A stretch of DNA of 64,000 nucleotides from Ignavibacteria bacterium (GTDB lineage Bacteria > Bacteroidota > Ignavibacteria > Ignavibacteriales > SURF-24), in contig JAAXKQ010000019.1 in assembly GCA_025612245.1 (NCBI GenBank), positions 1 to 64,000 of the forward strand. The letters are read 5' to 3'. Every line of letters starts with the position of its first letter. Position 1 is the first letter of the stretch. Below are positions 374-29,472 of the stretch, piece after piece. A model generated the notes under the pieces. It was not told the DNA's origin, did no database searches, and was given only the letters and a program-made list of their open reading frames with translations. The translations under genes were made by a program, and so were the position numbers.

Positions 374-958
374 TTAGCAGAATTTTTCCTTGTACTGCAA
401 TAAAATTTCCGTCTCCAGCTCAAGGTTGCCGCTAAAGCAGTATTCCTTATTCTGCAGGATGTCGAAGGCAACGAGTCCGGAATCATTTGAAATTCCGTCT
501 ACGAGAAGTGTAAAAAGCTGTCTTGCCGGTGCATGCAGGCCGTAAAGGCCCTTGATCAGGCCGTCAGTGTAGCTTTCCCTTAATGCAACCATCTGGTCAG
601 TTATCTCACTGCAAAGATCAAACTTTACGAGCAGCCTGAGCCTGAGGTAAATATTCCGGATTTTTGCAGATGAGCGGAACAGAGTGCTGTTCAGGTCAAC
701 CGATTCGCCCCGGTAGTTCAGTACGGCAACGTCGCGCATGCCGTAGAGAAGGATTTCGCCGCTTTGAAGCTGATATTCAGGACTGCCGAATACGACGCGC
801 TTAATGTCTACCTTAAAGCCGTTGGCCAGGGTTATGGCTTCCAGGTTCTGCCTTAGAGCCATGAGAATCAGGTATCGGTAATTTATATCCCCCTGATCGC
901 TCTGCCTGTTTCCTGCAAGGCAAAAGGGAACAAGTCCGTATGTAGAATTGCCAAACAT
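374..958 (-). CDS. Phage-associated protein of unknown function (possible tail-terminator-like)
   Basis: This soluble 194-residue protein lies between the tail fibre and the small membrane protein, 40 bp after the fibre stop. Its N-terminal half (YRYLILMALRQNLEAITLANG, then VKVDIKRVV-like and LYGMRDVAVLNYRG segments) resembles the opening of phage tail-terminator/minor tail proteins, in which a helix computing a span of the reading precedes a beta strand. That likeness is by eye only. No catalytic motif, signal peptide or membrane span is seen. The gene order on the minus strand makes a virion role the simplest inference. Confidence 0.5.
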   Translation of the reverse strand: MFGNSTYGLVPFCLAGNRQSDQGDINYRYLILMALRQNLEAITLANGFKVDIKRVVFGSPEYQLQSGEILLYGMRDVAVLNYRGESVDLNSTLFRSSAKIRNIYLRLRLLVKFDLCSEITDQMVALRESYTDGLIKGLYGLHAPARQLFTLLVDGISNDSGLVAFDILQNKEYCFSGNLELETEILLQYKEKFC

Positions 959-998
959 ATTTTATTCTGCTCGCATTATGCTTATCGTTTTTGCCTGG

Positions 999-2204
999 TT
1001 ATCTGATTTTGTACATTTCCACCACAGAGACCCATCTGACCGTTTTCGCGGTTTCTCCGGTAACCCTCAGAATGAGAGCGCCATTTACAGTATCGGCGGC
1101 AAAATTTGCATCCCATGAGGAAGAAGCTTTATGAATTACGGTTTTCAGGCACGTAAAAAGCTGTACCGATGAGGCTCCCGCGCCGCGGGTAATAAGTCCT
1201 TTTATTTCAAAAAATGCGGCGTCTGCCAGGTTTCCCGAAGTATGGGCGGTAATTCTGGCGCAAAAGCCCGCGGCCAGGTTGTCCTCAAGAACGATTCTAT
1301 CCGAGGGAGGGGAGATAAATATTTCAGATGGAATTCCGTCCTGAGTAAATCCGCAAAGGCTCAGGCGCGAGAGCTGCGCGTCGCCATAATCGGTAATATA
1401 ACCTGAAGCGAAGGCATGTTCACCTTTAAGCCTTGCCGTTGCCCCCAGTCCTTCAGTATGCGAGTAGGGGCCCAGTGCCGAGGTATGAGTCCCCTCGGCA
1501 TGAGAGTAGTTTCCCTGGGAGATAGTCTGGAACCCCTCGGCATGCGAGGAGCTTCCCGGGGCCTGGCAGGACTGGCCCTCGGCGTGGGAGCTTAGGCCGG
1601 AAGCGGAGGTAAAATATCCTTCCGAATGGGAGGACATACCGGAGGAGGTATTAGAGCGGCCTTCAGAATGAGAACCCAGGCCCGAGGCGGTGTTACCGCT
1701 TCCGGAGGCAAAGGAGCAGAAGCCGCTCGCGGTATTATTCGATCCCGAGGCAATAAAGCTGGCTTCACCCGAGGCTACCTGTGTGCTGCTTTCACGGAGG
1801 AACTGGAAGTCGGTTGCATCATCACCGCGCTCGTTTCCGAAAGTATTTCCCGTTATAATTCCATGCCTGCCGTTTACAAGCTCCTCGTAGGCGGCTTTAG
1901 TAAAGGAGAGGATTAACTTATAGATTCTCCCGGGTGCGTTTTTCGTGCTGGCGACTATGCCTTCCTCCCCGCGCCTGAGTTTCAGCAGACTGCCTTCAAG
2001 TGCCGTAACTCTGACAATCTCCCTGTGGGGGTCGTCGGATGGATTTTTATAATCTGTGTAGTTGAACCATACCAGGTTATAGTATCCCTCGGCCTTGGGG
2101 TCCGGCAGCTTTGCCGCCTCGCCATCCATGAGTTCAATGGTTGTACAGAGCTCATCGTAGCCCGATTTGACTTCAACCATGCAGAAATTTCTTACCGGTT
2201 GCAT
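999..2204 (-). CDS. Phage tail fibre / receptor-binding protein with SHAEG repeats
   Basis: This 401-residue protein has three parts. Residues 1-120 resemble the N-terminal module of many tail fibres (REIVRVTALEGSLLKLRRGEEG, then a region ending in AAYEELVNG). Residues about 140-265 form a run of roughly 14-residue repeats with SHAEG, SHSEG or SHTEG cores and A/S-x-G spacers, a left-handed YadA-head-like beta roll common in trimeric fibres. Residues about 290-401 are a globular tip ending in WVSVVEMYKIR. There is no signal peptide, so a virion fibre is favoured over an autotransporter adhesin, and the upstream capsid genes agree. No reverse transcriptase or variable repeat is visible, so there is no sign of diversity generation. 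It follows the interrupted connector gene directly, where tail-tube and tape-measure genes would normally lie. Confidence 0.8.
   Translation of the reverse strand: MQPVRNFCMVEVKSGYDELCTTIELMDGEAAKLPDPKAEGYYNLVWFNYTDYKNPSDDPHREIVRVTALEGSLLKLRRGEEGIVASTKNAPGRIYKLILSFTKAAYEELVNGRHGIITGNTFGNERGDDATDFQFLRESSTQVASGEASFIASGSNNTASGFCSFASGSGNTASGLGSHSEGRSNTSSGMSSHSEGYFTSASGLSSHAEGQSCQAPGSSSHAEGFQTISQGNYSHAEGTHTSALGPYSHTEGLGATARLKGEHAFASGYITDYGDAQLSRLSLCGFTQDGIPSEIFISPPSDRIVLEDNLAAGFCARITAHTSGNLADAAFFEIKGLITRGAGASSVQLFTCLKTVIHKASSSWDANFAADTVNGALILRVTGETAKTVRWVSVVEMYKIR
1400..1775 (-). repeat. Degenerate in-frame repeats coding the SHAEG beta roll
   Basis: Inside the tail-fibre gene, units of about 42 bp recur with conserved blocks coding SHAEG, SHSEG or SHTEG. 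Seven or so clear units run from the GLGSHSEG unit to the PYSHTEG unit, with more diverged ASG units on the N-terminal side. They are protein-level repeats that keep the reading frame, and unit number could change by slippage or recombination. Confidence 0.7.
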
Positions 2205-2373
2205 ATTAAACCATAATATTAAGTAAAGTTTATAACTAATTAAAAAATAAAGCAGATAAAGAAATTTAAGGATAAGAAGTATGCCTGTAATTCGCCTCTA
2301 TTGGCCTAAGGGAAGACATATCCTGTGGAAGCGATCGGGAGCTAACCAGGGCTTCTAATGTTTTAGAGGAAAG

Positions 2374-2949
2374 CTACACCTTTACGTTCATGTACTTCAG
2401 CAAAATTGCCCTGTGTCTTGGAAGCTCATCCAGGACGAACATTCTCACACTGCCGGTGTGGTTTGCTAAAAGTCCCAGGCGTCCTTCCCCGTGAGGGGAA
2501 TTCTGGTAGATAAGTGCGCACATTTCGCAGGCAACCATCTTGAGGTCGGCTGGAATATCCTGATATCCGCAGACGTATGAGACCCGGTAGTTCAAGATAC
2601 CATCTTCAAAAAGGCCGCGGCACCTGTAAAGAAATTTACCCCTGTAGAGCACCACCCGGTTCATTTCCTCAGGCGAGGCAAAGCAGTCTTTGAATTCGGT
2701 GCCATCCCGGATTTTCAAAGACGTCAGTGAAGTAACGTGCCTGTTGCTTAGAATAAGGAGGTGTGATCCGTCGCCTGAGAGGACCTCGCTGACGCTGCAT
2801 TCCTTAAGCTTCGTGTTGCAGTAATCCTCCATCATCTGGCTGGTGGCATCAATAAGGAAGTCAAAGAAAGAATCCCGGGAAATGTCGGCCTTATTCTAGG
2901 CGAGGTATTCTTTCAATTCTGAAAGTGAAATTATCTGGTTACTGTTCAT
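2374..2949 (-). pseudogene. Phage head-tail connector (gp6-like), interrupted by an in-frame TAG
   Basis: The 153-residue open frame at 2374-2835 has the features of HK97 gp6-like head-tail connectors, including the segment ILNYRVSYVCGYQDIPADLK and a helical segment after it. Reading further upstream in the same frame gives a typical connector N terminus (SELKEYLA, then RDSFFDFLIDATSQ) back to an ATG at 2947-2949. That ATG has a GGGAGAG box 8 nt upstream. The only interruption is a TAG at 2896-2898, codon 18 of a 192-codon frame. The internal ATG at 2833-2835 has no Shine-Dalgarno sequence. The gene is therefore probably inactivated by a nonsense mutation, or read through by a suppressor. It sits between the capsid gene and the tail fibre. 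Confidence 0.75.
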
Positions 2950-3010
2950 TAAAGCTCTCCCAAAGAAGACCTGAATCCTGAAAAATATACGTTTCAAATT
3001 AAGATTATTT

Positions 3011-4126
3011 CTATGCAGCAGAGGTTTTGGCTACTGCAAATCCGCCCGGCAGGAGGACGGCGATGCCGACGCGTTCCATAGCCCTGAGCGCCTGTTCAGC
3101 CCGTTCGAACATGCTTTCGCTGTTAATTACGGCGCTGTCGGATATCTTAAAGGCAATTTCGCCCTTGCCTGCAAGTCCGATATTTCTTGCGTTTCCGAAA
3201 GCCAAAAACGGTGTATTTGCCGCCACGGCGGATTTTGCCGGCATGGCATCCACTTTTTCGACCGGGTATCCCATCAGTTCCTCGATGGGACCATTACCGG
3301 GTTTAAGCAGAATGGGGTTGCCTGCAGAATCCTTAATTTTCCTGATTTCTCCAAAAATACTCGGGTGAGCGAACCAGCGAGAGCCCCTCAGTTTTGCCGT
3401 CGACAGGCAGCTCTGCATGTCAACCAGGTCGTCATATCCCAGGCTTGAAATGCTAGCTCCCTTAAGTGTTACAGCGTTTACTCCAGAAGCATGGAGCAGT
3501 CCCGTAAACGGAGCGCCCGAACCCGCAAAGCCCTGTTGATCCTCGGCGAATGCAATACGCTCTCCATAGCGTTCCATGAGAAAGTCGTAAAGCACTATAA
3601 GGCAGTCACTTAGCAGCTCTTCTGTAACGGTTGAAATAGCGGCTACTTTTTTGAGAATCAGGTTAACATCCTCAAACGACGGTTCGCTAGAAGCAATTAC
3701 GCCTTTCTCGTTAATCCAGCTGACAGATATATCGGAGAGGAGTCTTGGAATATGAAGGCTGTCGGATTTAACGCGGCTCATGTCGAAATAAGACCCATAG
3801 CGGCGAAGAACGCCGTAATCATTTACAAAGTGCAGAATATCAGAAGCCACTTCTTCGGGCACCAGGTAGCCGCCGTCGGAAGCCACCCCATCGGATAAGG
3901 CCTGTTGAAGTATCGGCTCATACTGCTTATTGTGCATATAGCATAAAAGCTGCAGGAAGCGCTCTTTCTTGCCGGTTTTTAGCTGTTCCTGCTCTTCCTG
4001 CTGAGGATTAATTTTATACCTGGCGTCAATCTTATCCATTCCAAGCGCCTTTACGGCGGCATCGACAGCCTGAGTCTGCAGAGCGAGGAATTCTTCTTTT
4101 GTGAGCTGAATTACACCGTTTTCCAT
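3011..4126 (-). CDS. Phage major capsid protein, HK97 fold
   Basis: This protein forms the icosahedral shell. After an N-terminal helical scaffold-like segment (about residues 1-80, normally removed by the prohead protease) comes the HK97-type body: VPEEVASDILHFVNDYGVLRRYG, the strand block SWINEKGVIASSEPSFEDVNL, and the conserved middle segment GSGAPFTGLLHASGV. The start at 4126 (MENGVIQLTKEEF) is chosen because GGAGG lies 5 nt upstream; a longer frame to 4177 has no ribosome site. The length, about 371 residues, is normal for the family. It stands directly downstream of the protease and portal genes in the canonical order. Confidence 0.92.
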   Translation of the reverse strand: MENGVIQLTKEEFLALQTQAVDAAVKALGMDKIDARYKINPQQEEQEQLKTGKKERFLQLLCYMHNKQYEPILQQALSDGVASDGGYLVPEEVASDILHFVNDYGVLRRYGSYFDMSRVKSDSLHIPRLLSDISVSWINEKGVIASSEPSFEDVNLILKKVAAISTVTEELLSDCLIVLYDFLMERYGERIAFAEDQQGFAGSGAPFTGLLHASGVNAVTLKGASISSLGYDDLVDMQSCLSTAKLRGSRWFAHPSIFGEIRKIKDSAGNPILLKPGNGPIEELMGYPVEKVDAMPAKSAVAANTPFLAFGNARNIGLAGKGEIAFKISDSAVINSESMFERAEQALRAMERVGIAVLLPGGFAVAKTSAA

Positions 4127-4299
4127 AGAAACCTCCAGCGGGATTGTTTTAGGGGTGAGAAAAAATGAATTATTCATGATGATTTAAATATTCGGGAAAT
4201 ATGTTTCCTGAAATAAAGTAGTTTATAAGGAATTGATTTCCGGCAAAGGGGAAAGTCTGGATTTTTTTTAGAATGGGCCAATAAGAGACGCGCAAAATT

Positions 4300-4875
4300 T
4301 CAGATGCCCTTTAGTCTTTTTGCATATTCAGCTGCAAACAGAGGTATTTCGTGTTTGAGTCTCTCAAAATCGTCCTCGGCTTTTCCGTTAAGGCTCTGGA
4401 TGAGGAGTTCATCTTGAATGAGCCCCTGTCCGACTGCAACCGTTATTGCATCAGCATCCATGGGAACGCTTACGGCGGAAACTTCCAGGAGAATCCAGCT
4501 TGTAATGTGAAGGATTTCCTTACCTCCTTCCTTATCGGTTTTCATTTCCAGGGGCAGAAAGCCGATTGACCAGCTCGTAAGAAAGCCCTCCTGGTAGAGC
4601 CTGAAGATGTCGCCTGCAAGCTGAGTATGGTTAAACTCAAAAGTAGCAAGAATGCCGCCGGATTCGACGCTGAGCTCCACACAGCGGGCGATAATCTTTG
4701 TATCATCGTGAAAGGCGAGTACTACAGGGCTCTTAAAATAATCCTCGAATCTTCCTCCTTCAGGATCAATCCTTCGTCCTCCGCGGTTTATGCCGGCCGT
4801 GACGATATAGCATTGAAGCGTTTTATTCTCAGAAGCCCGCATCTCCGAGACCAGCACCTGTTTCATCTTTTCCAT
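4300..4875 (-). CDS. HK97-family prohead protease (peptidase S78)
   Basis: This serine protease cleaves the delta domain of the capsid protein during prohead maturation and is itself packaged. The 191-residue length fits the family. The likely catalytic His is H56 in VVLAFHDDTK and the likely Ser is S103 in the LTSWSIGF block, followed by the strand EILHITSWILLEVSAVSVP that is typical of S78 enzymes. An AGGAG box lies 6 nt before the ATG at 4875. It sits between portal and capsid genes, the order found in HK97-like phages and gene transfer agents. Confidence 0.92.
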   Translation of the reverse strand: MEKMKQVLVSEMRASENKTLQCYIVTAGINRGGRRIDPEGGRFEDYFKSPVVLAFHDDTKIIARCVELSVESGGILATFEFNHTQLAGDIFRLYQEGFLTSWSIGFLPLEMKTDKEGGKEILHITSWILLEVSAVSVPMDADAITVAVGQGLIQDELLIQSLNGKAEDDFERLKHEIPLFAAEYAKRLKGI

Positions 4876-4916
4876 ATGTTCTCCTTTTTGCGAGTCAATT
4901 GTTTTTGGGAAGCATG

Positions 4917-4985
4917 AAGTAATTAGTAAGTAGTAATTAGTAAGGAGTATGTAGTAAGTAGTATAGAGTATGGAGTAAGGAGGAG
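4917..4985. repeat. AGTA-type low-complexity tandem repeat
   Basis: The stretch between the portal stop and the protease start is built almost wholly from degenerate AGTA, ATTAGTA and AGTATGG units, with an imperfect doublet of AGTAATTAGTAAGT at its left end. It is AT-rich, non-coding and unlike the flanking genes. No protein or spacer structure is seen. Confidence 0.75.
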
Positions 4986-5015
4986 GAAAAAGGAAGAGCT
5001 TTGGAGACCGAAGGA

Positions 5016-6173
5016 TCAGATTCCGTAGCCTTCCTCCTGCCTTATCTCATCTGAACTGAGCCAGCCGTACTTGCGGCCGTTCTCATAATATTTCAGCCTT
5101 AATTCCAAATCGCGCGGCACGACGTCATCATGCATTACAAAAAAAAATTCACCGAATTCTCTTTGCACCAGCTGTGTAAATTTAATTGAAAAATACCTGC
5201 ACAGGGGTTCTATTGCATTGCTGAGGTAAGTGAAATTTGCGGCTTCTGCATTTGCACGGTTTACGTCGGCTACAATTCCCAGTTTGCTTGCAGGCACGCG
5301 GAATGCCCCGAGGATTTCATCGCGCACATTTTTCCTTGAGGCTGAAAAGTCCAGCTCCCTGGCGGAAGTTTTGTGAATGTTAAGCTTCAGTCCGTTATCC
5401 AGCACTGGTACGGAAGACGTCCTGCGCAGGCCGCCATATTTTGCACGGAACTGTTCCTGAAGCTCGCGCGCAAGCTCAAGTCCCAGGTCCTTATCCGTTT
5501 CAAGGGAGACGGGGGGAACAGGCTGGTTAAAGCTTTCCACCTGGAAAGCCAACTCGAGGTTATTAACGTTAATGATGTCTGCTATTGCCAGAATTATGCT
5601 TTGTCCGTAGAAAAGATCTCCCGCCTTCTGGTGCTTAAAATGAATTATGTCTTCCTTTGCAATATCAATTCTTTGTTGACCGGATTTATAGACATAAGAT
5701 TTAATGAGGTCATTTTCTCCGGGAATGATTTTCAGGTATTCGGGCAGAATGGGGTGCAGACGTGAAATTACGTTCATTCTGTTGCGCTCAAGCAGCCAGT
5801 ACATATCACCCGTGGCATCCATATTCTGTACGGTCAGAAGCATAAGTTCATACCAGGAAAGGTCATAGCCCGGATCATAAAAAAGGTGAACGAAAGGATG
5901 GTCGGGCACTTCTTCGGTTACTGTGCGTCCGTTTTTAGCCGAGCGGCGGTAAAGCCTGAAGGCAGTCTTTGCAACATCCTCGCTTCTTAGAGCAATAGCG
6001 GAGAAAACCCAGCTCCTGATTTCATTATAAAGCTGCTGCTTCTGTGAAAACCTGGAAAGCCCCGGGGAAGAGCCCGGTAAATCGATCTCTTTGCTCACCC
6101 GGTAATTAAAGCTGCTGCCAGACTGAAGAAGGAGTTTAAGGAAGCCGTTAAGAAGTCTTGTGTAGAGTTTCAT
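5016..6173 (-). CDS. Phage portal protein, HK97 type
   Basis: The portal forms the dodecameric ring at one capsid vertex through which DNA is packaged and ejected. The 385-residue sequence carries family features: an N-terminal region leading to SWVFSAIALRSEDVA, the block WYELMLLTVQNMDATGDMYW, the strand IIHFKHQKAGDLFYGQSII, and the C-terminal helical region LGIVADVNRANAEAANFTYL, which is a portal hallmark. No Shine-Dalgarno sequence is evident at the ATG. It is the first recognisable gene of the virion cassette. The terminase large subunit, normally directly upstream, is absent: the preceding 324 bp hold no gene, and an HNH protein lies beyond them. Confidence 0.92.
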   Translation of the reverse strand: MKLYTRLLNGFLKLLLQSGSSFNYRVSKEIDLPGSSPGLSRFSQKQQLYNEIRSWVFSAIALRSEDVAKTAFRLYRRSAKNGRTVTEEVPDHPFVHLFYDPGYDLSWYELMLLTVQNMDATGDMYWLLERNRMNVISRLHPILPEYLKIIPGENDLIKSYVYKSGQQRIDIAKEDIIHFKHQKAGDLFYGQSIILAIADIINVNNLELAFQVESFNQPVPPVSLETDKDLGLELARELQEQFRAKYGGLRRTSSVPVLDNGLKLNIHKTSARELDFSASRKNVRDEILGAFRVPASKLGIVADVNRANAEAANFTYLSNAIEPLCRYFSIKFTQLVQREFGEFFFVMHDDVVPRDLELRLKYYENGRKYGWLSSDEIRQEEGYGI

Positions 6174-16984: not shown

Positions 16985-18433
16985 TCATCTGTTAAACAGC
17001 AGTCCAATTCCGGCCTTAAGGATTTCTTCAACCTCGGCAGTGCTGTTTGCCTCGGCATAGATCCTTACAAGTGGTTCGGTTTCAGAGGAGCGTAAAAGGA
17101 GCCATCTTGAATTTCCCTCAAGCGTGAATTTGAGGCCGTTTACAATTCCCCTGCTGGAATAGAATTCCTTGGCATTTAGGACCGAAAATCCGGTAATTTT
17201 CTTCGGGGGACGGGAGAAAAGTCCCGGCAGTATACCGGTCCTGTCCTCATTTTCATAGCGGAAGTCAATCCTGTCGTAATAGATGCTGCCGAATTCAAGT
17301 CTTTTCTTTTCAAAATACCGGCTCAAGGTGCCGTAGCCCGATTTAGCGAGCATTTCAGCCATGATCAGGGCCGAGAGGATTCCATCCCGCTCCGGGATAT
17401 GGCCTTTATATCCAAATCCGCCGCTTTCCTCGCAACCGACCGCGATGTCGTTACAAGTCATCTCTTCGCATATATACTTAAAGCCCACCTGTACGTCAAT
17501 TACCTTGCGGTCAACTGTTTCAAAGAGTTTAATTTTATCCGTAACAGAGGAGGTTTTTACCAGGTGGCCTTTAGTTTTCCTCATATTGACGAAGTAATCG
17601 TTAAGAAGAAGGATTGTGTACTGTGCGCTCAGGTACCGCCCATCTTCAAGCAGAACCCCGCATCGGTCGGCGTCTCCGTCATTTGCAATTCCAAAGGAAA
17701 ATCCGGGGTTTTCTTTGAGGTATTTTTTTGTCTCTTCCAGATTTTTTTCAATCGGTTCGGGCAGTCTTCCCAGGAATTCCGGACTGGGAGCGGAGAAAAT
17801 TGTGCCGGCGCTGCAGCCGTTTCTTTTTAAGATTTCTTCAAGATAGGTTTTTCCGGCTCCAGCCATAGAATCCACAAGTATACGAATGCCGGCGTGCCTG
17901 ATGGCTTCAAAATCGATGTAGGCCTCGAGTTGCCGGAAGTAAGTTTCCATGATGTCTGTTTTTACGACATTATCCCGGTTTTTTTTTACCGGCTGCATTC
18001 CAAGGAGCTTTTCGACCTTCAGTGTCTCTTCGGTAAAAAACGGTCCTCCGTAGGAAGCCTTGAATTTTATGCCGTTATATTCAGGCGGGTTGTGGCTTGC
18101 CGTTATCATAACGCCGGCATCAAGATTATTTGCCTTAACGAAAAATGAAAGTGCCGGGGTAGGCACAATCCTGTCGGATAAAAACGCCGTAATTGAGTTG
18201 CCTGAAAGGACTTCGGAGAATGCCGTGGCAAACTCCTCTGAACACCTCCTGCCGTCGAAGCCGACTGCAACCCTTATGCCTTTTCCTTTATTTTCTTGTG
18301 TTTTGAAAGCATGTATTTCAGGGGAAAGATAGTTTGCAAAAGCCTGTGCAACGAGCGCAACCGACTGACAGTTAATTTCTGTATCCAGCAGGGCGCGCCA
18401 GCCGTCGGTGCCGAAAATTATTCCATTATTCAT
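16985..18433 (-). CDS. Phosphoglucomutase/phosphomannomutase
   Basis: This enzyme interconverts hexose 1- and 6-phosphates. All four alpha-D-phosphohexomutase signatures are present: the phosphoserine loop TASHNP with S113, the metal loop NDGDADRCG, the sugar loop GCEESGGFGYKGH, and the phosphate-binding loop RSSETEPLVRIYAE. The start at 18433 (MNNGIIFGTDGWRALLD) is chosen because this is the conserved N terminus; a frame extending to 18568 adds a low-complexity, proline-rich segment unlike the family. GGAGAG lies 12 nt upstream. Length, about 482 residues, is normal. Substrate preference between glucose and mannose phosphate cannot be told. It is divergent from the catabolic operon, whose phosphorylase could supply hexose 1-phosphate. 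Confidence 0.93.
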   Translation of the reverse strand: MNNGIIFGTDGWRALLDTEINCQSVALVAQAFANYLSPEIHAFKTQENKGKGIRVAVGFDGRRCSEEFATAFSEVLSGNSITAFLSDRIVPTPALSFFVKANNLDAGVMITASHNPPEYNGIKFKASYGGPFFTEETLKVEKLLGMQPVKKNRDNVVKTDIMETYFRQLEAYIDFEAIRHAGIRILVDSMAGAGKTYLEEILKRNGCSAGTIFSAPSPEFLGRLPEPIEKNLEETKKYLKENPGFSFGIANDGDADRCGVLLEDGRYLSAQYTILLLNDYFVNMRKTKGHLVKTSSVTDKIKLFETVDRKVIDVQVGFKYICEEMTCNDIAVGCEESGGFGYKGHIPERDGILSALIMAEMLAKSGYGTLSRYFEKKRLEFGSIYYDRIDFRYENEDRTGILPGLFSRPPKKITGFSVLNAKEFYSSRGIVNGLKFTLEGNSRWLLLRSSETEPLVRIYAEANSTAEVEEILKAGIGLLFNR

Positions 18434-18682
18434 GATTGTATATAGCTCTCCAATTGCTTCTCCCGGGGGGGGAGGGGATGTGAAAAGAGCATCAGAAAGT
18501 GCTCCGCACGTTGCTCTCTCAGCCCGGCGTAAGTGAAAAAATGTGCCCAAAAGGTTCCCAAAAACCAAATTCCAGGAATAAAACTTAGCTTATACTGCCT
18601 TAAGCGACAACTACATCATAGTGTAGGTTTTTTTCTATTTCTGTTTAATTATGTTAGCACACAAAAAGAACCATAACATAAA

Positions 18683-20190: not shown

Positions 20191-22347
20191 ATGACTCGTA
20201 AAATAAAGATTGGAATAGACGTTGGCGGTACATTTACACACGCCGTTGCTGTAGAAATTACCGATTACTCGATTGCAGGAAAAGCCTGTGTGCCCACGAC
20301 GCACTCTGCCAAAGAAGGCGTTGCAAGGGGAGTAATTGAATCTCTTAAGAACCTGATAGAAAGTGCACACATAGATCCTGAAGAAATCATACTGATTGCA
20401 CATTCAACCACGCAGGCTACAAATGCACTCCTTGAAGGGGACGTTGCAGCCGTGGGGATAATAGGAATGGGCAAGGGGCTGGAAGGACTGAGGGCAAAAA
20501 GGGAGACCAGGCTGGATCACATTGAGCTCGCTTCAGGCAAATTTCTCAGGACCAGGCACTGCTTTCTTGAGACTTCCAGGCCGCTTAATGAAAACCTGGT
20601 TCGTGAGGCAATTTCGGCACTGCTTAAAGACGGGGCGGAGGTAATTGTTGCCTCTGAAGCCTTTGGCGTGGATAACCAGGCAAACGAGGATTTTGTGGTA
20701 AATGTTGCACGGGAAATGGGCCTGCTTGCAACGGCCGCAAGCAGGATCTCAAAGCTCTACGGCTTAAAGGTGAGAACCAGGACCGCGGTGCTCAATGCCA
20801 GCATGATGCCCAAAATGCTGGAAACGGCAAACATGACCGAAGAGGCAATCAAGAAGAGCGGCATCAAGGCACCCCTTATGGTCATGCGTTCAGACGGCGG
20901 AATAATGGACATAAATGAAATGCGCAGAAGGCCCATTCTTACCATGCTCAGCGGTCCTGCTGCGGGCGTTGCCGCAGCGCTGATGTATGCAAAAATTTCG
21001 GACGGGATCTTCATTGAAGTCGGTGGAACCTCGACAGACATTTCAGTAATAAAGAACGGCAAGCCGCAGGTAAAGAGCGCACAGATTGGGGGAAACAGGC
21101 TTTACCTGAAGACACTCGACGTAAGGACGCTCGGCATTGCCGGCGGCTCAATTCCAAGGTTGCGTTCGGGAAAAATATTCGACGTTGGTCCCAGAAGCGC
21201 CCACATTGCAGGATTAGATTATGTAGCCTTCAGCTGTGATGAAGATTTCAGTGACATTGAAATTGAAAGCATCAGGCCGAAGGAAAACGACCCGGGCGAC
21301 TATCTTGCCATTGCAAGCAGGCACAACGGGCACAGGAAATACGCCCTTACGCCTACTGAAGCCTCAAATTTCCTGGGGCTTGTAGAAGAAAAAGGGCACG
21401 GGGAGGCGAACCAAAGGGCGGTCAGTGAGGCACTGGAGTCGTTTTCAAAAAAAATCAATGCTTCTTCGGAAGATGTGGCAAGGGATATACTTAAAATTTC
21501 AGCCGAGAAGATTAAGCCCGTTATAAGCCAGCTTAAGAGGGAATACAAGCTGGATGAAGAGATAATCAGTTTTATTGGCGGCGGCGGCGGAGCATCTGCC
21601 ATAGTACCTTTTACCGCCGGGTATCTACAGTACCCGCACAAGATCAGCAGCAACAGCGAGGTCATTTCGGCCATCGGGGCGGCGCTTGGAATGATCATGG
21701 ACTCCGTGGAAAGGTCCTGTATCAACCCTACGGATTCGGACATAATTTCGGTGCGCCAGGAGGCGCTCGAATCGGTAATCGGCATGGGTGCTGCTGCTGA
21801 GAGCGTGGAAATTACGGTTGAGATCGATTCAAAGAACAAGAAAATTATTGCCGTTGCAATGGGAAACAGCGAGCTGAGGACGAGGGATCTGAACATAAAG
21901 GAATTAAGCCACGATGAGCTCTTCGGCATCTGTGCCGCATCGATGAAGGCTGAGAAAGACTCTCTTACCATTGCAGGGCGCACGCCTTACCTGCTGGCCG
22001 TAATTCATAAGGTGACGAAAAAAAGCGGCTTCGGGCTCATAAAAAAAGAATACTGCAGGCTTAGGGTAATTGACAGGGAAGGCACAATAAGGCTTCAGCT
22101 GAGTGACTCTTTTGTTGAATCCGTTCCGGCAGGCGAGCTGAAAACAAAAATAACGCGTGCAATTGAAAGGTTTACGGTTTTCGGCGACGCGGGTGCGCTT
22201 ATGCCAAACATCTTCCTGTTGATATCGGGGCAGATAATAAATCTTTCGGGACTGATCAGTGAGACGCAGGTAATGACGCTGGTGGATCTTGAGCTCTCAA
22301 AGATTCCGGCAAATGATGAAGTAGTCCTGATTGCCTCTTCAAAATGA
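20191..22347 (+). CDS. Hydantoinase/oxoprolinase (HyuA-like) family protein
   Basis: The 718-residue protein begins with the ATP-binding motif [16 protein letters not shown] of the hydantoinase/oxoprolinase N-terminal domain, then [20 protein letters not shown]. The central actin-like domain has [22 protein letters not shown] and VGPRSAH, and a second glycine-rich loop is [13 protein letters not shown]. In characterised members ATP phosphorylates a cyclic amide carbonyl before ring opening, or a ketone before carboxylation. The usual SAGAxPGPACY segment is replaced by [12 protein letters not shown], so this is a divergent subgroup. No HyuB partner lies in the window. It overlaps the next gene by 4 bp (ATGA), showing translational coupling. 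Confidence 0.85.
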
Positions 22348-23216
22348 AAGAACGGGAATTTATGAACCAGATAAAAAAATATGACCTCATTGTTTACGGT
22401 GCCACAATAGCCGGTGTTATTTACGCCCTGAAATCCAGAAAACAGGGCAAGGAAGTGCTTCTTATTAACCGACTGGCGTTTTTGGGAGGAAGCATAACTG
22501 AGGCACTAAACTGCCTTCAGAAGATAAGGCAGCCCGAAGAAGAAGAGAGTATATACAGTGAGGTTATTTCTTCATTAAGAAAAGATAAATACGGATTTCT
22601 TTATTCCAGCGGCGAAAACGGGATAGTAAACCCCGAAGCAGTTAAAATGCTGCTGCTGGATTTGCTTACCCTGCAAGGAGTAGAGATGCTTTTTCACGTC
22701 AATCCTATGTCCTGCAGGGTTAAGGAAGAAGGCCTTGTGGAGCTTGAAGTTGCGGCAAAAGAAGGGATACTTAAGTTTTCAGGCTCCTCACTCCTGGATG
22801 CCTCGGAAAATTCTCTAATCAGCTCAATTTATGGCAATTGGCTTCCGTCGGAGGAAGAAAAAAAAGTAAACCTTTTTGTCACAAAGCCTTCCTCCAGGGA
22901 TTTTCTCGGCTATGAGGGGATTTCGAAATATGAAGAACTATTGGATGGCAGGTACTGGATTTCACTAAAAAATGAGGAAGCCCTGGAGACCGAAGCCATT
23001 CTGGGCGGGTTCTCAGCAATTCTTCATAATTCGGGATCCAGAATTCAGCTCATGCCTGCTGAAAAATTTATTCACTTTGCCGCAAAGGAAAGGAAAAAGC
23101 ATCCTGGGGTTGTAGCTACGGTTGAAGAGGTCTTGGGGCATAGTTTTATGGCGGATGAGGAGCTATTAAAAGCTTTTGAAGTAGAAAATTATTTATGCGG
23201 GTATTATGGAAAATAA
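22344..23216 (+). CDS. Short FAD-dependent oxidoreductase
   Basis: The N terminus [20 protein letters not shown] is the dinucleotide-binding motif of the FAD_oxidored family, in which GGT or GAT commonly replaces the second glycine. [19 protein letters not shown] continues the FAD fold. At 290 residues it is much shorter than the roughly 440 residues of its neighbour at 23901. It keeps an N-terminal Rossmann part and [15 protein letters not shown] (the FAD strand before the second half) but lacks the C-terminal FAD-closing segment. It ends inside the overlap with nanE, with no sign of a frameshifted remainder. It may act as a subunit with the full-length paralogue. The start could also be the ATG at 22362 (MNQIKKYD). 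Confidence 0.75.
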
Positions 23217-23910
23217 GCAGAAAATATTTGAAAGGTTAAAACACGGCCTTGTCGTTTCATGTCAGGCCGAAGGGGATTCCCCATTTAATTCACCAGAAGG
23301 TGTGGCAATGTTTGCAAGGGCTGCCGTGCAGGGCGGAGCCAAAGGGATCAGGTCGGAAGGCTTTGATAAGACAAGGAGAATATTGTCTGAAGTGGATCTT
23401 CCGGTAATTGGACTGAGCAAGTCCTACTTTGAGGACGGGACAGTCAGAATTACGGGGTCAAGTGCAGAAGTGGAAAGGCTCGTTAAAATAGGGAGCCACA
23501 TCATTGCCATTGACGGCACCTTCAGAAAAAGAGAAGGCTTAAGCGGGCCGGAATTTATAAATAAAATCAGGTGTGAATTCGGATGCATCATAATGGCCGA
23601 CATATCCACATACGAAGAAGGGCTGGAGTGTGAGGCTGCGGGTGCAAGCTGTGTATCAACGACGCTTAACGGCTACACGCCGATGACCTTGAGTGATAGT
23701 TCTTTGGGACCGAACTTCAGGCTTCTTGAAGCGCTTTCGGGGAAGGTTTCCATTCCTGTTTTTGCAGAAGGAAGGATAAACACGCCCGAGGCAGCGGCAA
23801 AGATGATACAGTCCGGCGCCTGGAGCGTTGTAACGGGATCTGCAATTACCAGGCCTGCACTGATCACTAAGTGGTACACTGAAGCAATTAAGAAAGTTTT
23901 ATGCCAATGA
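23206..23910 (+). CDS. nanE: N-acylglucosamine/N-acetylmannosamine-6-phosphate 2-epimerase
   Basis: NanE converts N-acetylmannosamine 6-phosphate to N-acetylglucosamine 6-phosphate. The 234-residue TIM barrel shows the family signatures: LVVSCQAEGDSPFNSPE at the start, GGAKGIRSEG, GLSKSYF with the probable catalytic Lys K72, IMADISTYEEG, and the phosphate-binding end IPVFAEGRINTPEAAAKM with VVTGSAITRP. It overlaps the genes on both sides by about 10 bp, so it is part of the operon. No sialate lyase, ManNAc kinase, deacetylase or deaminase gene is near, so it may act on a related phosphosugar made by this operon. Confidence 0.9.
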   Translation: MENKQKIFERLKHGLVVSCQAEGDSPFNSPEGVAMFARAAVQGGAKGIRSEGFDKTRRILSEVDLPVIGLSKSYFEDGTVRITGSSAEVERLVKIGSHIIAIDGTFRKREGLSGPEFINKIRCEFGCIIMADISTYEEGLECEAAGASCVSTTLNGYTPMTLSDSSLGPNFRLLEALSGKVSIPVFAEGRINTPEAAAKMIQSGAWSVVTGSAITRPALITKWYTEAIKKVLCQ

Positions 23911-25229
23911 ACCTCCCAAAAGAAGACTACGACATAGTTGTTGCAGGCGGCGGGATTGCAGGCATAAGTGCTGCAGTTAAAGCCTCCTCTATGGGCGCCC
24001 GGGTGCTGTTAATTGAACAGTACGGCTTCTTTGGCGGCATGTCCACTGCCGGAATGGTTTCTCCCTTTATGAAGTATTCTCTCGGGGAAAGGCCGCTCGT
24101 AAGCGGCGTCTTTTTAGAACTGGAAGAAGAAATGCAAAAGATGAACGGCATGATTGACAACGGATTTTATGCCGCCTCATTCCGCATCGCTTCATTTTCA
24201 CTATTGAAGAAATCCGGCTGCCTCATACTGCCTAACTGTGAAATTTGCGGCCTTGAGCTTGATGGCCGGGAAGTTAAGTCCCTGGAAGTCCTAAGCAATG
24301 GAAAGGCATTCAGAATTACGGGGAAGATATTTATTGACACCACGGGAGACGCACAGATGATTTATCTGGCGGGGCTGCCTTTTGCAAAGGGTGATGAGGA
24401 TACGGGCAGGCTTCAGGCAATGACAATGTTTTTCAGGATGGCAAACATTAACATGCAGGAAGTAACCAGGTATGCAAAAGAGCACAAGGAGAATTTCTTT
24501 GCGTGGATGGATTATAATTTCGACTTCAAAAAGATAATTTCAGTTGCCGGGTACTTCAGCCAGGTAAAGAAGGCAATTCAGGAAGGAAGGCTTTCTTCCG
24601 AGGTCGAATATATTTTCTTTACCACTCTGCCCGAAGAAGGCGAAGCCTCCTTCAACACGACAAACATTTTATCTCTCGACGGTTCGAGTTCATTTGACCT
24701 GACAAAGGCTGAAATCAAGGGACGCCAGCAGGTCTCAGAGATCACAAGGCTCCTGAAGGAGGAAATCCCGGGCTTTGAGGAGGCATTCCTGCTTGAAACT
24801 GCATTCCAGGTTGGCGTCAGGGAAACGCGTCGGGCTGTTGGGGATTATGTATATACGGGGGATGACGTAAGGAAGGGGCGCAAGTTCAAGGACGCAATAG
24901 CAAGGGCCTGCTATGGAATTGACATTCACGGGCAGAAGGATGAAAAAAGCGTGATGGAGCACGTGTCTGAGGGGGAATACTATGAAATCCCTTTAAGGAC
25001 GCTTTTTGTCGCGGGTCCGGACAACCTTTTGTCGGCAGGCAGGTGCATATCCTCGACTCGTGAAGGGCACAGCGCATTAAGAATAATGCCCACGAGTGCT
25101 GCAACGGGTGAAGCCTCGGGTGCGGTTTCGGCGCTGGCGGTAAAAAAAGGCATAAAGCCGCGCGAGGTTCCTTACGATGACCTGAAGAAAGCAATTTCTT
25201 ACAACCTTTCTGTGGAAGAGAGTGACTAG
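23901..25229 (+). CDS. FAD-dependent oxidoreductase (FAD_oxidored family)
   Basis: This 442-residue enzyme begins YDIVVAGGGIAGISAAVKAS, a textbook Rossmann FAD motif, with the family motif YGFFGGMSTAGMVSPFM around the active-site side. FIDTTGDAQMIYLAG and the C-terminal LLSAGRCISSTREGHSALR segment, which closes over FAD, are both present, so it is complete. Family members oxidise hydroxyl or amine groups of small molecules, or bind a further redox cofactor. Its partner may be the half-length paralogue two genes upstream. It overlaps nanE by 10 bp and is 44 bp before the HAD gene. Confidence 0.88.
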   Translation: MPMNLPKEDYDIVVAGGGIAGISAAVKASSMGARVLLIEQYGFFGGMSTAGMVSPFMKYSLGERPLVSGVFLELEEEMQKMNGMIDNGFYAASFRIASFSLLKKSGCLILPNCEICGLELDGREVKSLEVLSNGKAFRITGKIFIDTTGDAQMIYLAGLPFAKGDEDTGRLQAMTMFFRMANINMQEVTRYAKEHKENFFAWMDYNFDFKKIISVAGYFSQVKKAIQEGRLSSEVEYIFFTTLPEEGEASFNTTNILSLDGSSSFDLTKAEIKGRQQVSEITRLLKEEIPGFEEAFLLETAFQVGVRETRRAVGDYVYTGDDVRKGRKFKDAIARACYGIDIHGQKDEKSVMEHVSEGEYYEIPLRTLFVAGPDNLLSAGRCISSTREGHSALRIMPTSAATGEASGAVSALAVKKGIKPREVPYDDLKKAISYNLSVEESD

Positions 25230-25273: not shown

Positions 25274-26644
25274 ATGAGCAAAAAATTTATAAGTAGAGAC
25301 GATGCAGTTGAAATGATTGACTGCCTTGGGGACGAATTTACCGTAATCAAAAACCCGGATTACATTTTCCCAGCCTATGAAATTTGCCCCATGGCCGGGA
25401 AGGTTCATTCTGTTAAAGGAACAATTCCTGCCTTTGTCATGGATATGGATGGGACGACTACAACAACAGAGCTTCTTTGTCTGCACTCTCTGGAATATAT
25501 GATCCGCCTTTTTACGGGCAGGATGTCCGGGGATGAATGGGCGGGTCTGGACCACGCACTTGATTATCCTCATATAATCGGCAACAGCACGACAAAACAC
25601 GTTGAATACCTGGTGGAAAAGTATGGAAATTCTTTCAGGAAAGATGATATTAAGAATTCATTTATTCATGCGGCGCTCTGGACGCTGATGAACGGGCGGG
25701 ATGAAAAAAGAAAGGAAGAGGTAAGAAATAACGTAAAGATACTCAAGCTCTCACCGATGCTGCAGGACCCTGTTTTTAAGCGCATGGAAATGAACCCCAC
25801 TTCCTTTGAAATCACTCCCGAGATCCTAAAAAATTTTACTGATAATTACGGCAGTGACTTCAGCTGTCCCACCTTTGACAGCCTCGTGAGGGCAGGCATT
25901 GACGTCTATTACAAGCGCTACCACGAGATACTTGAGACCATTAAGAAAGGCGAGGGCAGACGTGTAGCCCTGGATATATTCCATGAGGCGGAAAAGCACC
26001 TGATTGAGTCTATGCCGGGAGTACTGACATTCCTTTCAATTATAAACGGATGGATTGCCGGTGAGGAGATAGTTTACTTTATGCCGCAGCTACTGAAAGA
26101 CTACAAAACAAGAACCGGTATTGAGTTTCCTTGTGACTCGGTTCATGACGTACAAGCCAGTCTTAAACAACTGGCCGGAAATTACAGGAAAAATCCGGCA
26201 AAAAAAGCACTCGTTACCTCGTCCATTTTTTATGAAGCCGACATAGTAATGAAAGAGCTCATGGCAATGCTGCAGTTTCAGGTGATGAATATTGATATGC
26301 CAAAGCTCCTTAAAGAATTTCTTTTGGAGAAGTTTTCCGACTACAACAACGTCTATGACGCATTTATAACGGCAAGCGATTCGAGCGAAATGAGGCTCAA
26401 GCCTCACAGGGACCTTTACAGCACCGCGCTTTATAAGCTCCACGTACCAAAAGAGCAGTTCAACAGGGTTGCGGGCTTTGAAGACAGCGAAAGCGGGACC
26501 ATAGCAATAAGAACGGCGGGAATCGGGCTTTGTGTTGCCCTGCCTTTTGCGCAGACGAAAAAGCACGACCTTTCGGCGGCCTGTTACGTATGCGAAGGCG
26601 GGCTTCCTGAGGTATTGCTGAGGCACAAATTATTTACCGTGTAA
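25274..26644 (+). CDS. HAD-superfamily hydrolase with a very large cap
   Basis: All four haloacid-dehalogenase motifs are visible: motif I VMDMDGTTTTTE with D57 and D59, motif II ALVTSS (about 313-317), motif III Lys K376 in RLKPHRD, and motif IV FEDSESGT with D404. About 250 residues lie between motifs I and II, far more than the usual cap, and are mainly helical. The enzyme is 456 residues long. It is probably a phosphatase or phosphomutase on a phosphosugar produced in this operon; the DxDGT motif and a SxxG motif-IV form suit a beta-phosphoglucomutase-like or phosphatase subgroup. No closer assignment is possible by eye. It is 44 bp behind the oxidoreductase and 26 bp before the GH38-like gene. 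Confidence 0.8.
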   Translation: MSKKFISRDDAVEMIDCLGDEFTVIKNPDYIFPAYEICPMAGKVHSVKGTIPAFVMDMDGTTTTTELLCLHSLEYMIRLFTGRMSGDEWAGLDHALDYPHIIGNSTTKHVEYLVEKYGNSFRKDDIKNSFIHAALWTLMNGRDEKRKEEVRNNVKILKLSPMLQDPVFKRMEMNPTSFEITPEILKNFTDNYGSDFSCPTFDSLVRAGIDVYYKRYHEILETIKKGEGRRVALDIFHEAEKHLIESMPGVLTFLSIINGWIAGEEIVYFMPQLLKDYKTRTGIEFPCDSVHDVQASLKQLAGNYRKNPAKKALVTSSIFYEADIVMKELMAMLQFQVMNIDMPKLLKEFLLEKFSDYNNVYDAFITASDSSEMRLKPHRDLYSTALYKLHVPKEQFNRVAGFEDSESGTIAIRTAGIGLCVALPFAQTKKHDLSAACYVCEGGLPEVLLRHKLFTV

Positions 26645-26670: not shown

Positions 26671-29472
26671 ATGGATAAAAAAGTTTTTCACGTAATATCA
26701 AACACGCACTGGGACCGTGAGTGGCGATATCCCTTCCAGAAAAACCGCCAGATGCTGGTGGATATGATAGATAATGTTCTTGAAATACTGGAGCAGGAAC
26801 CGGAATACAGGGCTTTTCACCTGGACAGCCAGTCAATCGTTTTAAAGGACTACCTTGAGATCCGTCCTGAGAAGAAAGGAACAATAAAAAAATTCGTTGA
26901 AGCAAAAAGACTCCTTGTTGGACCATGGTACATACTTCCGGATGAATTTCAGGTTGGAGGGGAAAACCTCATAAGAAACCTTCTCTTAGGGCACAAGGTT
27001 GCAGGGCAGAACGGCGGGGTTTCAAAGATCGGATATTCGCCGTTTTCATGGGGGCAAATTTCACAGCTCCCGCAGATATATAAGCAGTTTGACATAGATC
27101 TTATTATGTTCTACCGCGGCGTCAACTCCATAGACAGCCCTAAGGCCGAGTTTTTGTGGGAGGGGGCAGACGGGGAAAAGATGGTGACTTCCAGGTTCTC
27201 CACGATGCCAAGGTATAACTTTTACTTTTACATTTACCGTCCGGTAATTCACAACGAGGCTATCCCGGATGTTGAGTACAAGTGGTCCAAAGGGGGTATG
27301 CCTTTTCACTTTGCGGGGAAAGACACCTTTGAAGAAGATTATTCAATTATAGTTCCGCTGGACTCATATTATCCTGAAAATATCAAGCCTTCGGTTGAAA
27401 AAATCATACGGGATCAGGCGAAGGATTTTACGACTGAACACGTGATCTGGATGGAAGGGCATGATTCAAGCGGGCCAAATGCCAAGACAGCAAGAATAAT
27501 AAAGGACATAAAAACTCTTATGCCGGGCCTCGAAGTAAGGCACAGCACGCTGGAAGAATATGCAGATGCCGTGCTTAAAAGTGTGGACAGGCACGGGCTT
27601 AAAACGGTAAAAGGGGAGCGCAGGAGCGCACAGTATGACCTCAGAAGCGGCAACCTTTACGGCTATACCACTTCGGCACGCATGTATCTAAAGCAGAAAA
27701 ATTATGAAACTGAAAAGTGGCTTCAGTACTATGCTGAACCGTTTAACGCCTTTTCGTCGCTCCTTGGAAGAGATATCAGGGACAATTACCTGAATATAGC
27801 CTGGGAATTACTGATACAGAATTCGGCCCACGACTCTATCGGGGGATGCAGCCTTGATGAGATACACGATGACATGATGATGAGGTATAATCATTCCATT
27901 CAGATTTCCCGTGGGGTTTTTGAAAGAGCTCTTAAGTACATCGCAAAGAATATAGACAGCAGCAGTTTTACCAAGACTCCCTTAGAAAGAGACAATATCT
28001 TCCTTACGGCGTTTAACCCCGGCAATTACCGGAGAAGAGAAACAGTGGAAGCATTTATTGACATTCCGAAGGAGTTCGACAAGGGAAGCCTCAGGCTCGT
28101 GGACAGCACGGGAAACGAACTTAAAGCGGTGATTCTGGCAAAAGAAGACTGCCAGCCCGTTTTAGAGCAGCTCATAGACCGTCCGATGTATTTTGAGATG
28201 ACGCGCTACAGGACTCTTCTGGAAATGAAGGACATCCCTCCGTTCGGCCTCAGGCAGTTTAAGGTTATTCCCGAGGCCAGGAAAAAAAAGGCTGAAGCGG
28301 CCCCGCTTAAAAAGACAGGCAAAGCTTTGCTCGAGAACGAATACCTGAAGGTAAAGATAAATGCCGACGGGTCTCTTAACCTCCTGGACAAGGAGAATAA
28401 CGTTACCTATAAGAACCTGGGTTACTTTGTTGATGAAGGTGAAGGCGGGCATGCCTGGACGCATGAATCTGTTGAACCCGTAGTCAGTACACTAAAATCA
28501 AGGGCAGAAATTACAAAAATTGAGGACAACCCCCTTAGAACCAGGTTCAGCATAAAGCATATCATGAGGCTTCCCAAAGACCTCAAAGAAAGACGTTTGG
28601 GGAAGGGAGCCTTCTGTGATATGCCCGTTGGGTTAACAGTTACGCTTGGGAAAAATTCAAAGCACCTTGAGTTCGGTATTGAGCTTGAAAATACCATTGA
28701 AAGCCACCGGCTCAGGATGCTTTTCCCAACCGGGCTGAAGGCAGCAAAGAATTCATTTGGCGAAGGGCAGTTTGACGTCGTAAAGCGCTCAATTGAGCGC
28801 CCGGATACCGGTAAATGGGTCGAACAGCCGATGTACGACTATCCGATGCACCATTTCGTGGATCTGTCGGACGGTCTTAATGGCTGTGCAATAATGACCG
28901 AGGGTCTCAAGGAATACGAGGCTTTTGAAGACAAGGAAAGGACGGTTGCGGTCACGCTTTTGCGTGGCTTTGAGTACATAATTGCTCCAAGCTCCAGGCA
29001 GGATTATGCGTACAAGAAAGGCTCTCAGTGCCCGGGAGTGCACAAGTTCCATATTGCATTCTACCCCCATAAGGGCGGCTGGGCGGAGGGCAGGGTCTTT
29101 GAGCAGGCGCTGACTTTTGCAAATCCGGTATCCCTCGTTCAAAGCGGTGCATCAAAAGGAAGCCTGAAGACAGATCTGTCCTTTATTGAGATCACGCCAA
29201 AAGAGCTCGTCTTCAGCGCGCTTAAAACGCCTGAGGACGGGGAAAAAGATACCTTTATTCTCAGGCTTTACAACCCCACGGAAAGGAAGATTACGGGCAA
29301 GGTCAGTAGCCTCTTTAACTTTAAGAAAGTTGAAGAAGTCACACTGGAGGAGAAGGCAGTCAGGCAGATAGGCACTGAAAACAGAAATTCATTTACCATT
29401 ACGGCCGGGAAAAAGAAAATCGTGACCTTAAGGATCACCTTCGGCCTTAAAAAAGAGGGACTCAATGTTTGA
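26671..29472 (+). CDS. GH38-like alpha-mannosidase family protein with altered active site
   Basis: GH38 enzymes are zinc-dependent retaining alpha-mannosidases. The 933-residue protein has the N-terminal signature SNTHWDREWRYPF (zinc ligands H13 and D15), the helical GH38 middle domain with AHDSIGGCSLDEIHDD (ligand H387), and a C-terminal beta-sandwich. The segment that normally supplies the nucleophile Asp (PDxFG) reads GYSPFSWGQISQLPQIY, placing Phe at position 125. This residue is normally also a zinc ligand, so either the mechanism differs or another residue, perhaps the Asp in WMEGHDSSGP, acts. There is no signal peptide, so it is cytoplasmic. It overlaps the next gene by 8 bp, coupling it to the GH94-like phosphorylase. 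Confidence 0.88.
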   Translation: MDKKVFHVISNTHWDREWRYPFQKNRQMLVDMIDNVLEILEQEPEYRAFHLDSQSIVLKDYLEIRPEKKGTIKKFVEAKRLLVGPWYILPDEFQVGGENLIRNLLLGHKVAGQNGGVSKIGYSPFSWGQISQLPQIYKQFDIDLIMFYRGVNSIDSPKAEFLWEGADGEKMVTSRFSTMPRYNFYFYIYRPVIHNEAIPDVEYKWSKGGMPFHFAGKDTFEEDYSIIVPLDSYYPENIKPSVEKIIRDQAKDFTTEHVIWMEGHDSSGPNAKTARIIKDIKTLMPGLEVRHSTLEEYADAVLKSVDRHGLKTVKGERRSAQYDLRSGNLYGYTTSARMYLKQKNYETEKWLQYYAEPFNAFSSLLGRDIRDNYLNIAWELLIQNSAHDSIGGCSLDEIHDDMMMRYNHSIQISRGVFERALKYIAKNIDSSSFTKTPLERDNIFLTAFNPGNYRRRETVEAFIDIPKEFDKGSLRLVDSTGNELKAVILAKEDCQPVLEQLIDRPMYFEMTRYRTLLEMKDIPPFGLRQFKVIPEARKKKAEAAPLKKTGKALLENEYLKVKINADGSLNLLDKENNVTYKNLGYFVDEGEGGHAWTHESVEPVVSTLKSRAEITKIEDNPLRTRFSIKHIMRLPKDLKERRLGKGAFCDMPVGLTVTLGKNSKHLEFGIELENTIESHRLRMLFPTGLKAAKNSFGEGQFDVVKRSIERPDTGKWVEQPMYDYPMHHFVDLSDGLNGCAIMTEGLKEYEAFEDKERTVAVTLLRGFEYIIAPSSRQDYAYKKGSQCPGVHKFHIAFYPHKGGWAEGRVFEQALTFANPVSLVQSGASKGSLKTDLSFIEITPKELVFSALKTPEDGEKDTFILRLYNPTERKITGKVSSLFNFKKVEEVTLEEKAVRQIGTENRNSFTITAGKKKIVTLRITFGLKKEGLNV

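Follow-up and report, generated by a model that had tools for sequence, protein, structure and literature searches.

A multi-phylum clade of GH38-fold proteins with phenylalanine at the nucleophile position and a HAD-family partner

In the 64,000-nucleotide stretch of an Ignavibacteria bacterium genome analysed here (assembly GCA_025612245.1, contig JAAXKQ010000019.1, positions 1 to 64,000, hereafter the window), the gene at 26671-29472 encodes a protein that, judged by sequence and fold, is a member of glycoside hydrolase family 38 (GH38) and, judged by alignment, lacks the catalytic aspartate of that family, with phenylalanine (F125) in its place. The initial annotation had described a GH38-like enzyme with Phe at the nucleophile position, and beyond this the analysis shows that the F125 variant is a multi-phylum clade with a HAD-family partner. 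It is tentatively proposed, as a reading somewhat less probable than even, that the F125 protein is a zinc-site enzyme of the GH38 fold that would cleave an alpha-manno-type glycoside by inverting phosphorolysis, after which the HAD protein would act on the sugar phosphate; the catalysis, the phosphate nucleophile, the substrate and the HAD reaction are the parts that we infer. The features discussed are listed in Table 1.

Table 1. Coordinates in the window of the F125 gene, its key codons and the neighbouring genes
Feature	Position	Strand	Remarks
Alpha-D-phosphohexomutase, nearest archaeal GlmM type	16985..18568	-	divergent here
Membrane transporter, 491 aa	18683..20158	+	first gene of the operon
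HyuA-type hydantoinase/oxoprolinase-like protein	20191..22347	+	PDB match N-methylhydantoinase
Second, shorter FAD oxidoreductase-like protein	22344..23216	+	
NanE, N-acetylmannosamine-6-phosphate 2-epimerase	23206..23910	+	NCBIfam PRK01130 254 bits, cut-off 189
FAD-dependent oxidoreductase	23901..25229	+	PF12831; missing in some relatives
HAD-family protein, 456 aa, sugar-phosphate type	25274..26644	+	DxDGT, K and ED motifs intact
GH38-fold protein, F125 variant, 933 aa	26671..29472	+	four GH38 Pfam domains; best fold matches are GH38 structures
H13 and D15 codons	26707..26715	+	aligned with zinc ligands H90 and D92 of dGMII; invariant
YSPFSWGQ segment	27034..27057	+	F125 codon (27043-27045) stands in for the Asp nucleophile
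Codons 174-183	27190..27219	+	clade-specific invariant S174, R175, R181 and N183; after barrel strand 170-174 (model); candidate anion site
GHDSS, codons 263-267	27457..27471	+	D265 aligned with the acid/base Asp
H387-D388 codons	27829..27834	+	aligned with the zinc-ligand pair H471-D472 of dGMII
GH94 glycoside phosphorylase, 800 aa	29465..31867	+	8-nt overlap of its start with the GH38 stop

The open reading frame runs from an ATG start to a TGA end through 933 codons with no internal stop, so the gene is otherwise intact, as had been stated, and the overlap of its stop codon (29470-29472) with the start of the GH94 gene fits the translational coupling to this neighbour. In the product, four Pfam models (38N, mid, 38C and 38C2) exceed their cut-offs, and among proteins of solved structure the nearest in sequence are the GH38 enzymes of E. 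faecalis (3lvt, 5kbp) and SpGH38 (2wyh). The translation confirmed H13, D15, F125 and H387, with residue 123 as the first of the SPFSWG segment that had been read as the replacement of PDxFG. HMMER pairs GYSPFSWGQ with GYFPDTFGN of 3lvt, 5kbp and 2wyh with no gap nearby, and this ungapped pairing places F125 at the position of the nucleophile Asp; a MAFFT alignment made independently, with E. coli MngB and seven further GH38 proteins of the Asp type, gave an identical register. A register shift that would bring another Asp to the nucleophile site was thus excluded by two independent alignments, and the conserved acidic residues of the clade are either shared with the Asp-type proteins or sited elsewhere. 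The PDxFG motif of GH38 reads PFSWG here, with F125 in place of the Asp that is both nucleophile and fourth zinc ligand; this Asp is absent from the F125 protein and from 80/80 relatives and present in the Asp-type proteins compared.

For Drosophila GMII, Asp204 is described as the nucleophile and Asp341 as the acid/base, with His90, Asp92 and His471 coordinating zinc (PMC13204073). By alignment, H13 and D15 of the F125 protein supply the His-x-Asp zinc ligands and H387 the further His, so the zinc-site residues named by the initial annotation are present. The general acid/base Asp is, as placed by alignment with the NG(x)D segment of SpGH38 and MngB, D265. All four residues (H13, D15, D265 and H387) are invariant in an alignment of 55 sequences. 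The predicted model of the 933-aa protein (pLDDT 84.7, pTM 0.85) ranked GH38 structures first in fold comparison, with 2wyh at Z 37.2 over 798 residues and a match spanning residues 1-925; the overall rmsd of this superposition is large, as would follow from a different placement of the domains in the model. The pLDDT falls below 50 at residues 125-128 and 387-391. A signal peptide was not evident, and the protein is most likely cytoplasmic.

To collect relatives, one genome per species was scanned, with PFSWG absent from the search patterns. The scan returned 80 relatives from about ten phyla at 38-71% identity, and the homologue survey proposed earlier gave a uniform answer, since all 80 carry Phe at position 125 in the form PF(S/G)(W/Y)GQ and retain H13, D15 and H387 wherever sequence coverage reaches. 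In a tree of 25 such F-type and 13 Asp-type rows, the F-type proteins are split off by one supported branch (UFBoot 95 / SH-aLRT 90); they come from Ignavibacteriota, Bacteroidota, Balneolota, Calditrichota, Fidelibacterota, Delongbacteria, Chloroflexota, Planctomycetota, Omnitrophota, KSB1 and Bacillota. Within the phylum of the window, the distribution is patchy, the gene being found in 10/296 sampled genomes and in 17/59 close relatives. Decay or a sequencing error as the source of F125 was excluded by the Phe common to all 80 relatives, which form one supported clade, and the earlier judgement that simple decay is unlikely holds; Phe at 125 is a fixed variant of one clade.

Two further variants of the motif were observed. 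The Asp-type sisters L094 and L095 (L095:5583-8372) read CDMFG, with Pro changed to Cys, indicating that the nucleophile Asp persists even with an altered first motif residue. The most divergent F-type protein (L072, Omnitrophota) reads PFSYGQ and has GTDST in place of GHDSS, and its upstream gene encodes an iron-containing alcohol dehydrogenase where the HAD gene would stand.

Residues were regarded as exclusive to the clade when at least 96% conserved in F-type proteins and seen in none of eight Asp-type GH38 proteins, E. coli MngB among them. They include N11, R19, S53, H108, S123, F125, W127, Q129, Y148, S174, R175, R181, N183, S267 and K747, and the clade also has an extra segment near residues 186-230 relative to the same eight proteins. 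In the predicted model, the motifs around 125, 148, 175-183 and 263-267 come after strands of the catalytic barrel, and from this topology many of the exclusive residues (W127, Q129, Y148, S174, R175, R181, N183 and S267) would lie in loops on the active-site face of the barrel. No new conserved Asp or Glu adjoining position 125 was found in the F-type clade, either in the alignment of 55 sequences or in the comparison with the eight Asp-type proteins.

A catalytically dead pseudoenzyme or a regulatory sugar-binding protein might be expected from the dependence of known GH38 enzymes on the Asp nucleophile; this is very unlikely, as Phe is invariant over about ten phyla together with the acid/base Asp, the zinc ligands and numerous residues of the catalytic face, and a protein that only binds is not expected to retain all of them. 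Catalytic machinery is known to differ within one family in GH97, and GH99 uses an epoxide route. Another residue or a zinc-bound water could serve as nucleophile in an inverting or relocated-nucleophile hydrolase, or the 2-OH could act through a GH99-like epoxide; the retained acid/base and zinc ligands and the rebuilt rim of the active site would suit such a change, which is nevertheless improbable given that the clade has no new conserved Asp or Glu beside position 125 and that the HAD partner would go unexplained. Still less probable is a loss of glycoside cleavage, with the His-Asp-His metal site used for other sugar chemistry, such as isomerisation or elimination, on a product in common with the HAD protein. 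The replacement of the fourth metal ligand, the pocket re-lined by clade-specific residues and the further glycosidase or phosphorylase genes near many loci would be compatible with it, but D265, aligned as the general acid, is retained, as are all four GH38 domains, and nothing points to any specific alternative reaction.

The HAD gene is directly upstream of the F-type gene in 67/72 loci with at least 1 kb of upstream sequence. This pairing spans Ignavibacteria, Clostridia, Planctomycetes, Neomarinimicrobiota and Chloroflexi, the rest of the operon being absent in the last four, and the HAD versions of near and far clades belong to one homologous subfamily (hhalign probability 99.2, E 3e-19). 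Among 59 related genomes, the HAD family was present in 17/17 with the F-type gene and in 1/42 without it (Fisher 6e-14, with kinship among the genomes ignored). The protein has the HAD-IA fold with DxD, K and ED motifs, and its model (pLDDT 93) and profile are nearest to CbbY, beta-phosphoglucomutase (beta-PGM), TM_1254 and mannitol-1-phosphate phosphatase, all of which act on sugar phosphates. In the fold search, CbbY, beta-PGM and mannitol-1-phosphatase tie in Z, mutases and phosphatases alike, and the match to the NCBIfam bPGM model is far below its cut-off. Assignment of the HAD protein as a mutase was dropped, as sequence and fold both tie mutase with phosphatase. A paralogue of the HAD partner was observed on another contig of the source genome (L104, 9121-10524) between an MFS/POT-like transporter and an aldose 1-epimerase, and in the same kind of setting in L105 and L106; a UDP-GlcNAc 2-epimerase gene comes next after this locus in L104 and apparently in L106 too. 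These neighbourhoods could be a clue to the substrate of the HAD protein.

An active enzyme with zinc ligands and an acid and with no nucleophile of its own would need one from outside or from the substrate. In inverting phosphorylases, one catalytic residue suffices and phosphate is the nucleophile (PMC8950772). In the proposed mechanism, the enzyme keeps the zinc ligands H13, D15 and H387 and the general acid D265, with the Asp nucleophile exchanged for Phe. The substrate would be an alpha-linked manno-configured sugar, possibly ManNAc; inorganic phosphate, held by new basic residues of the clade such as R175 and R181, would attack C1 in a single displacement while D265 protonates the leaving group. 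The product would be a beta-hexose-1-phosphate, as expected of an inverting phosphorylase, and the neighbouring HAD protein (of beta-PGM, CbbY or sugar-phosphatase type) would convert it. In the operon of the window, the other sugar may be handled by GH94 and the phosphohexomutase, and ManNAc-6-P by NanE.

Phosphorolysis is consistent with the presence of F125 in 80/80 relatives while H13, D15, D265 and H387 are kept, and with the clade-exclusive residues, several of which follow barrel strands on the catalytic side and whose arginines would suit a phosphate site. In addition, a phosphorylase would require a sugar-phosphate partner such as the HAD protein, phosphorylase logic is already represented in the operon by GH94 and the phosphohexomutase, and the sodium symporter that adjoins the HAD-GH38 pair at two loci (L071 and L075) suggests entry of unphosphorylated sugar. 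Against it, the larger side chain of Phe compared with Asp could obstruct the side by which phosphate would approach, the confidence of the model is low exactly at 125-128 and 387-391, where the pocket would be judged, and the HAD partner could equally be a phosphatase. GH38 is also not among the phosphorylase families of a 2022 review, which are GH65, 94, 112, 130, 149, 161 and GT108 (PMC8950772). In the open-access literature searched, no report of a GH38 phosphorylase, a nucleophile-less GH38 protein or the F-type clade was found. That the clade forms a new class of zinc-dependent alpha-manno-type glycoside phosphorylases within GH38, defined by the change from Asp to Phe, an arginine-based phosphate site and a dedicated HAD enzyme in about ten phyla, is suggested with more reserve still.

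In the lineage of the window, the order of the operon is transporter, HyuA-like protein, FAD protein, NanE, FAD protein, phosphohexomutase, HAD, GH38 and GH94, and in most relatives the phosphohexomutase gene lies within the operon, upstream of the HAD gene. Among loci with enough sequence to show them, GH94 was present in 31/39, NanE in 22/29 and the mutase in 28/36, so the neighbourhood is kept in relatives with the F variant and the loss of the operon considered earlier did not occur. The FAD genes are absent from several relatives, and L034 and L051 consist of mutase, HAD, GH38 and GH94 only. A Pfam search of the transporter matched no family, and naming it by this means was dropped. No HyuB partner of the HyuA-like protein is present in the operon; the HyuA-like and transporter genes are both conserved. 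At the left end of the window, phage head genes on the reverse strand (374-6173: portal, head maturation protease, major head protein and head-tail adaptor) indicate a prophage or its remnant. In Priestia megaterium (L112, 289-2868), an Asp-type GH38 gene lies between a FAD-dependent oxidoreductase and a ROK protein, a parallel link between GH38 and FAD oxidoreductase.

In one genome (G026, locus L103, 4608-16012), the operon contains transporter, HyuA, NanE, mutase and GH94 genes without HAD and GH38, indicating that the HAD-GH38 pair is a separable module and that NanE is not specifically tied to the GH38 gene; an aminoglycoside-N-acetyltransferase-like gene and an aldose 1-epimerase follow. 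The pair itself is found with no GH94 gene in Clostridia, Planctomycetes, Chloroflexi and Balneolaceae. Regarding GH38 as a mere part of the GH94 operon is therefore insufficient, and NanE as proof of a ManNAc substrate is weakened; this operon also counts against phosphorolysis. In Balneolaceae, the pair adjoins an N-acylglucosamine 2-epimerase (E 1e-106 to porcine AGE), a sodium symporter and a GHL10 protein; a sialic-acid operon was rejected there, as the suspected NanA neighbour proved to be DUF4434.

Families GH18, GH20 and GH84, in which the substrate acetamido group assists, typically lack an enzyme nucleophile. As the main alternative to phosphorolysis, the F125 protein could be a substrate-assisted hydrolase of alpha-ManNAc glycosides, in which the trans 2-acetamido group would displace the leaving group from the face of the former Asp; only a general acid would be needed, and the acetyl methyl could be in packing contact with F125. 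This would account for both the absent nucleophile and the recurrence beside the gene of two unrelated 2-acetamido-sugar 2-epimerases (NanE and the Balneolaceae enzyme), and amino-sugar acetyltransferase-like genes are present at some loci. The Balneolaceae epimerase, which is one for free ManNAc, stands in place of NanE, and this suits an enzyme that liberates free sugar no less than it suits phosphorolysis. Such assistance is nonetheless rather unlikely: it leaves the near-obligate HAD partner unexplained, NanE also occurs in the operon without a GH38 gene, and mannose O2 and O3 contact the zinc in GH38 (PMC13204073), a contact that a 2-acetamido group would disturb.

Compared with known systems, SpGH38 and E. 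faecalis GH38 share the four-domain fold over nearly the full length (Z 37 and 33, 26-29% identity) and have the same zinc-ligand and acid/base positions. They differ in having PDTFG with the Asp nucleophile where the F-type clade has PF(S/G)(W/Y)G, and in lacking the segment near 186-230 and the exclusive R175, R181 and N183. The best NCBIfam match is E. coli MngB, the mannosylglycerate hydrolase (PRK09819); at 490 bits, far below the cut-off of 1138, the F125 protein is outside this family, and MngB keeps PDSFG and its gene lies in a PTS operon. Genes of GH65 phosphorylases (maltose and kojibiose phosphorylase) pair with beta-phosphoglucomutase genes, where likewise an alpha-glycoside-cleaving enzyme is fixed beside a HAD protein of the beta-PGM group; GH65 differs in its unrelated fold and known products, and the HAD cap domain of the F-type partner is much larger. 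In the GH94 protein of the window, DDIGLISR stands where chitobiose phosphorylase (1v7v) has DDIGFVTR, and cellobiose phosphorylases score almost as well as 1v7v (457 v 444 bits).

By Pfam and NCBIfam, F-type proteins look like ordinary GH38 alpha-mannosidases although they are without the key catalytic residue, and since the F125 protein lacks the catalytic Asp of GH38, the name alpha-mannosidase is unsuitable for it. The operon without HAD and GH38 offers a natural comparison for what the pair contributes. If the F-type proteins are active, a retaining, metal-dependent glycosidase family gave rise to a branch with different chemistry. If the substrate takes the part of the nucleophile, this would be a new type of alpha-ManNAc glycosidase; if phosphate does, the protein would be the first phosphorylase in GH38 as far as was found, with an energy saving for the cell.
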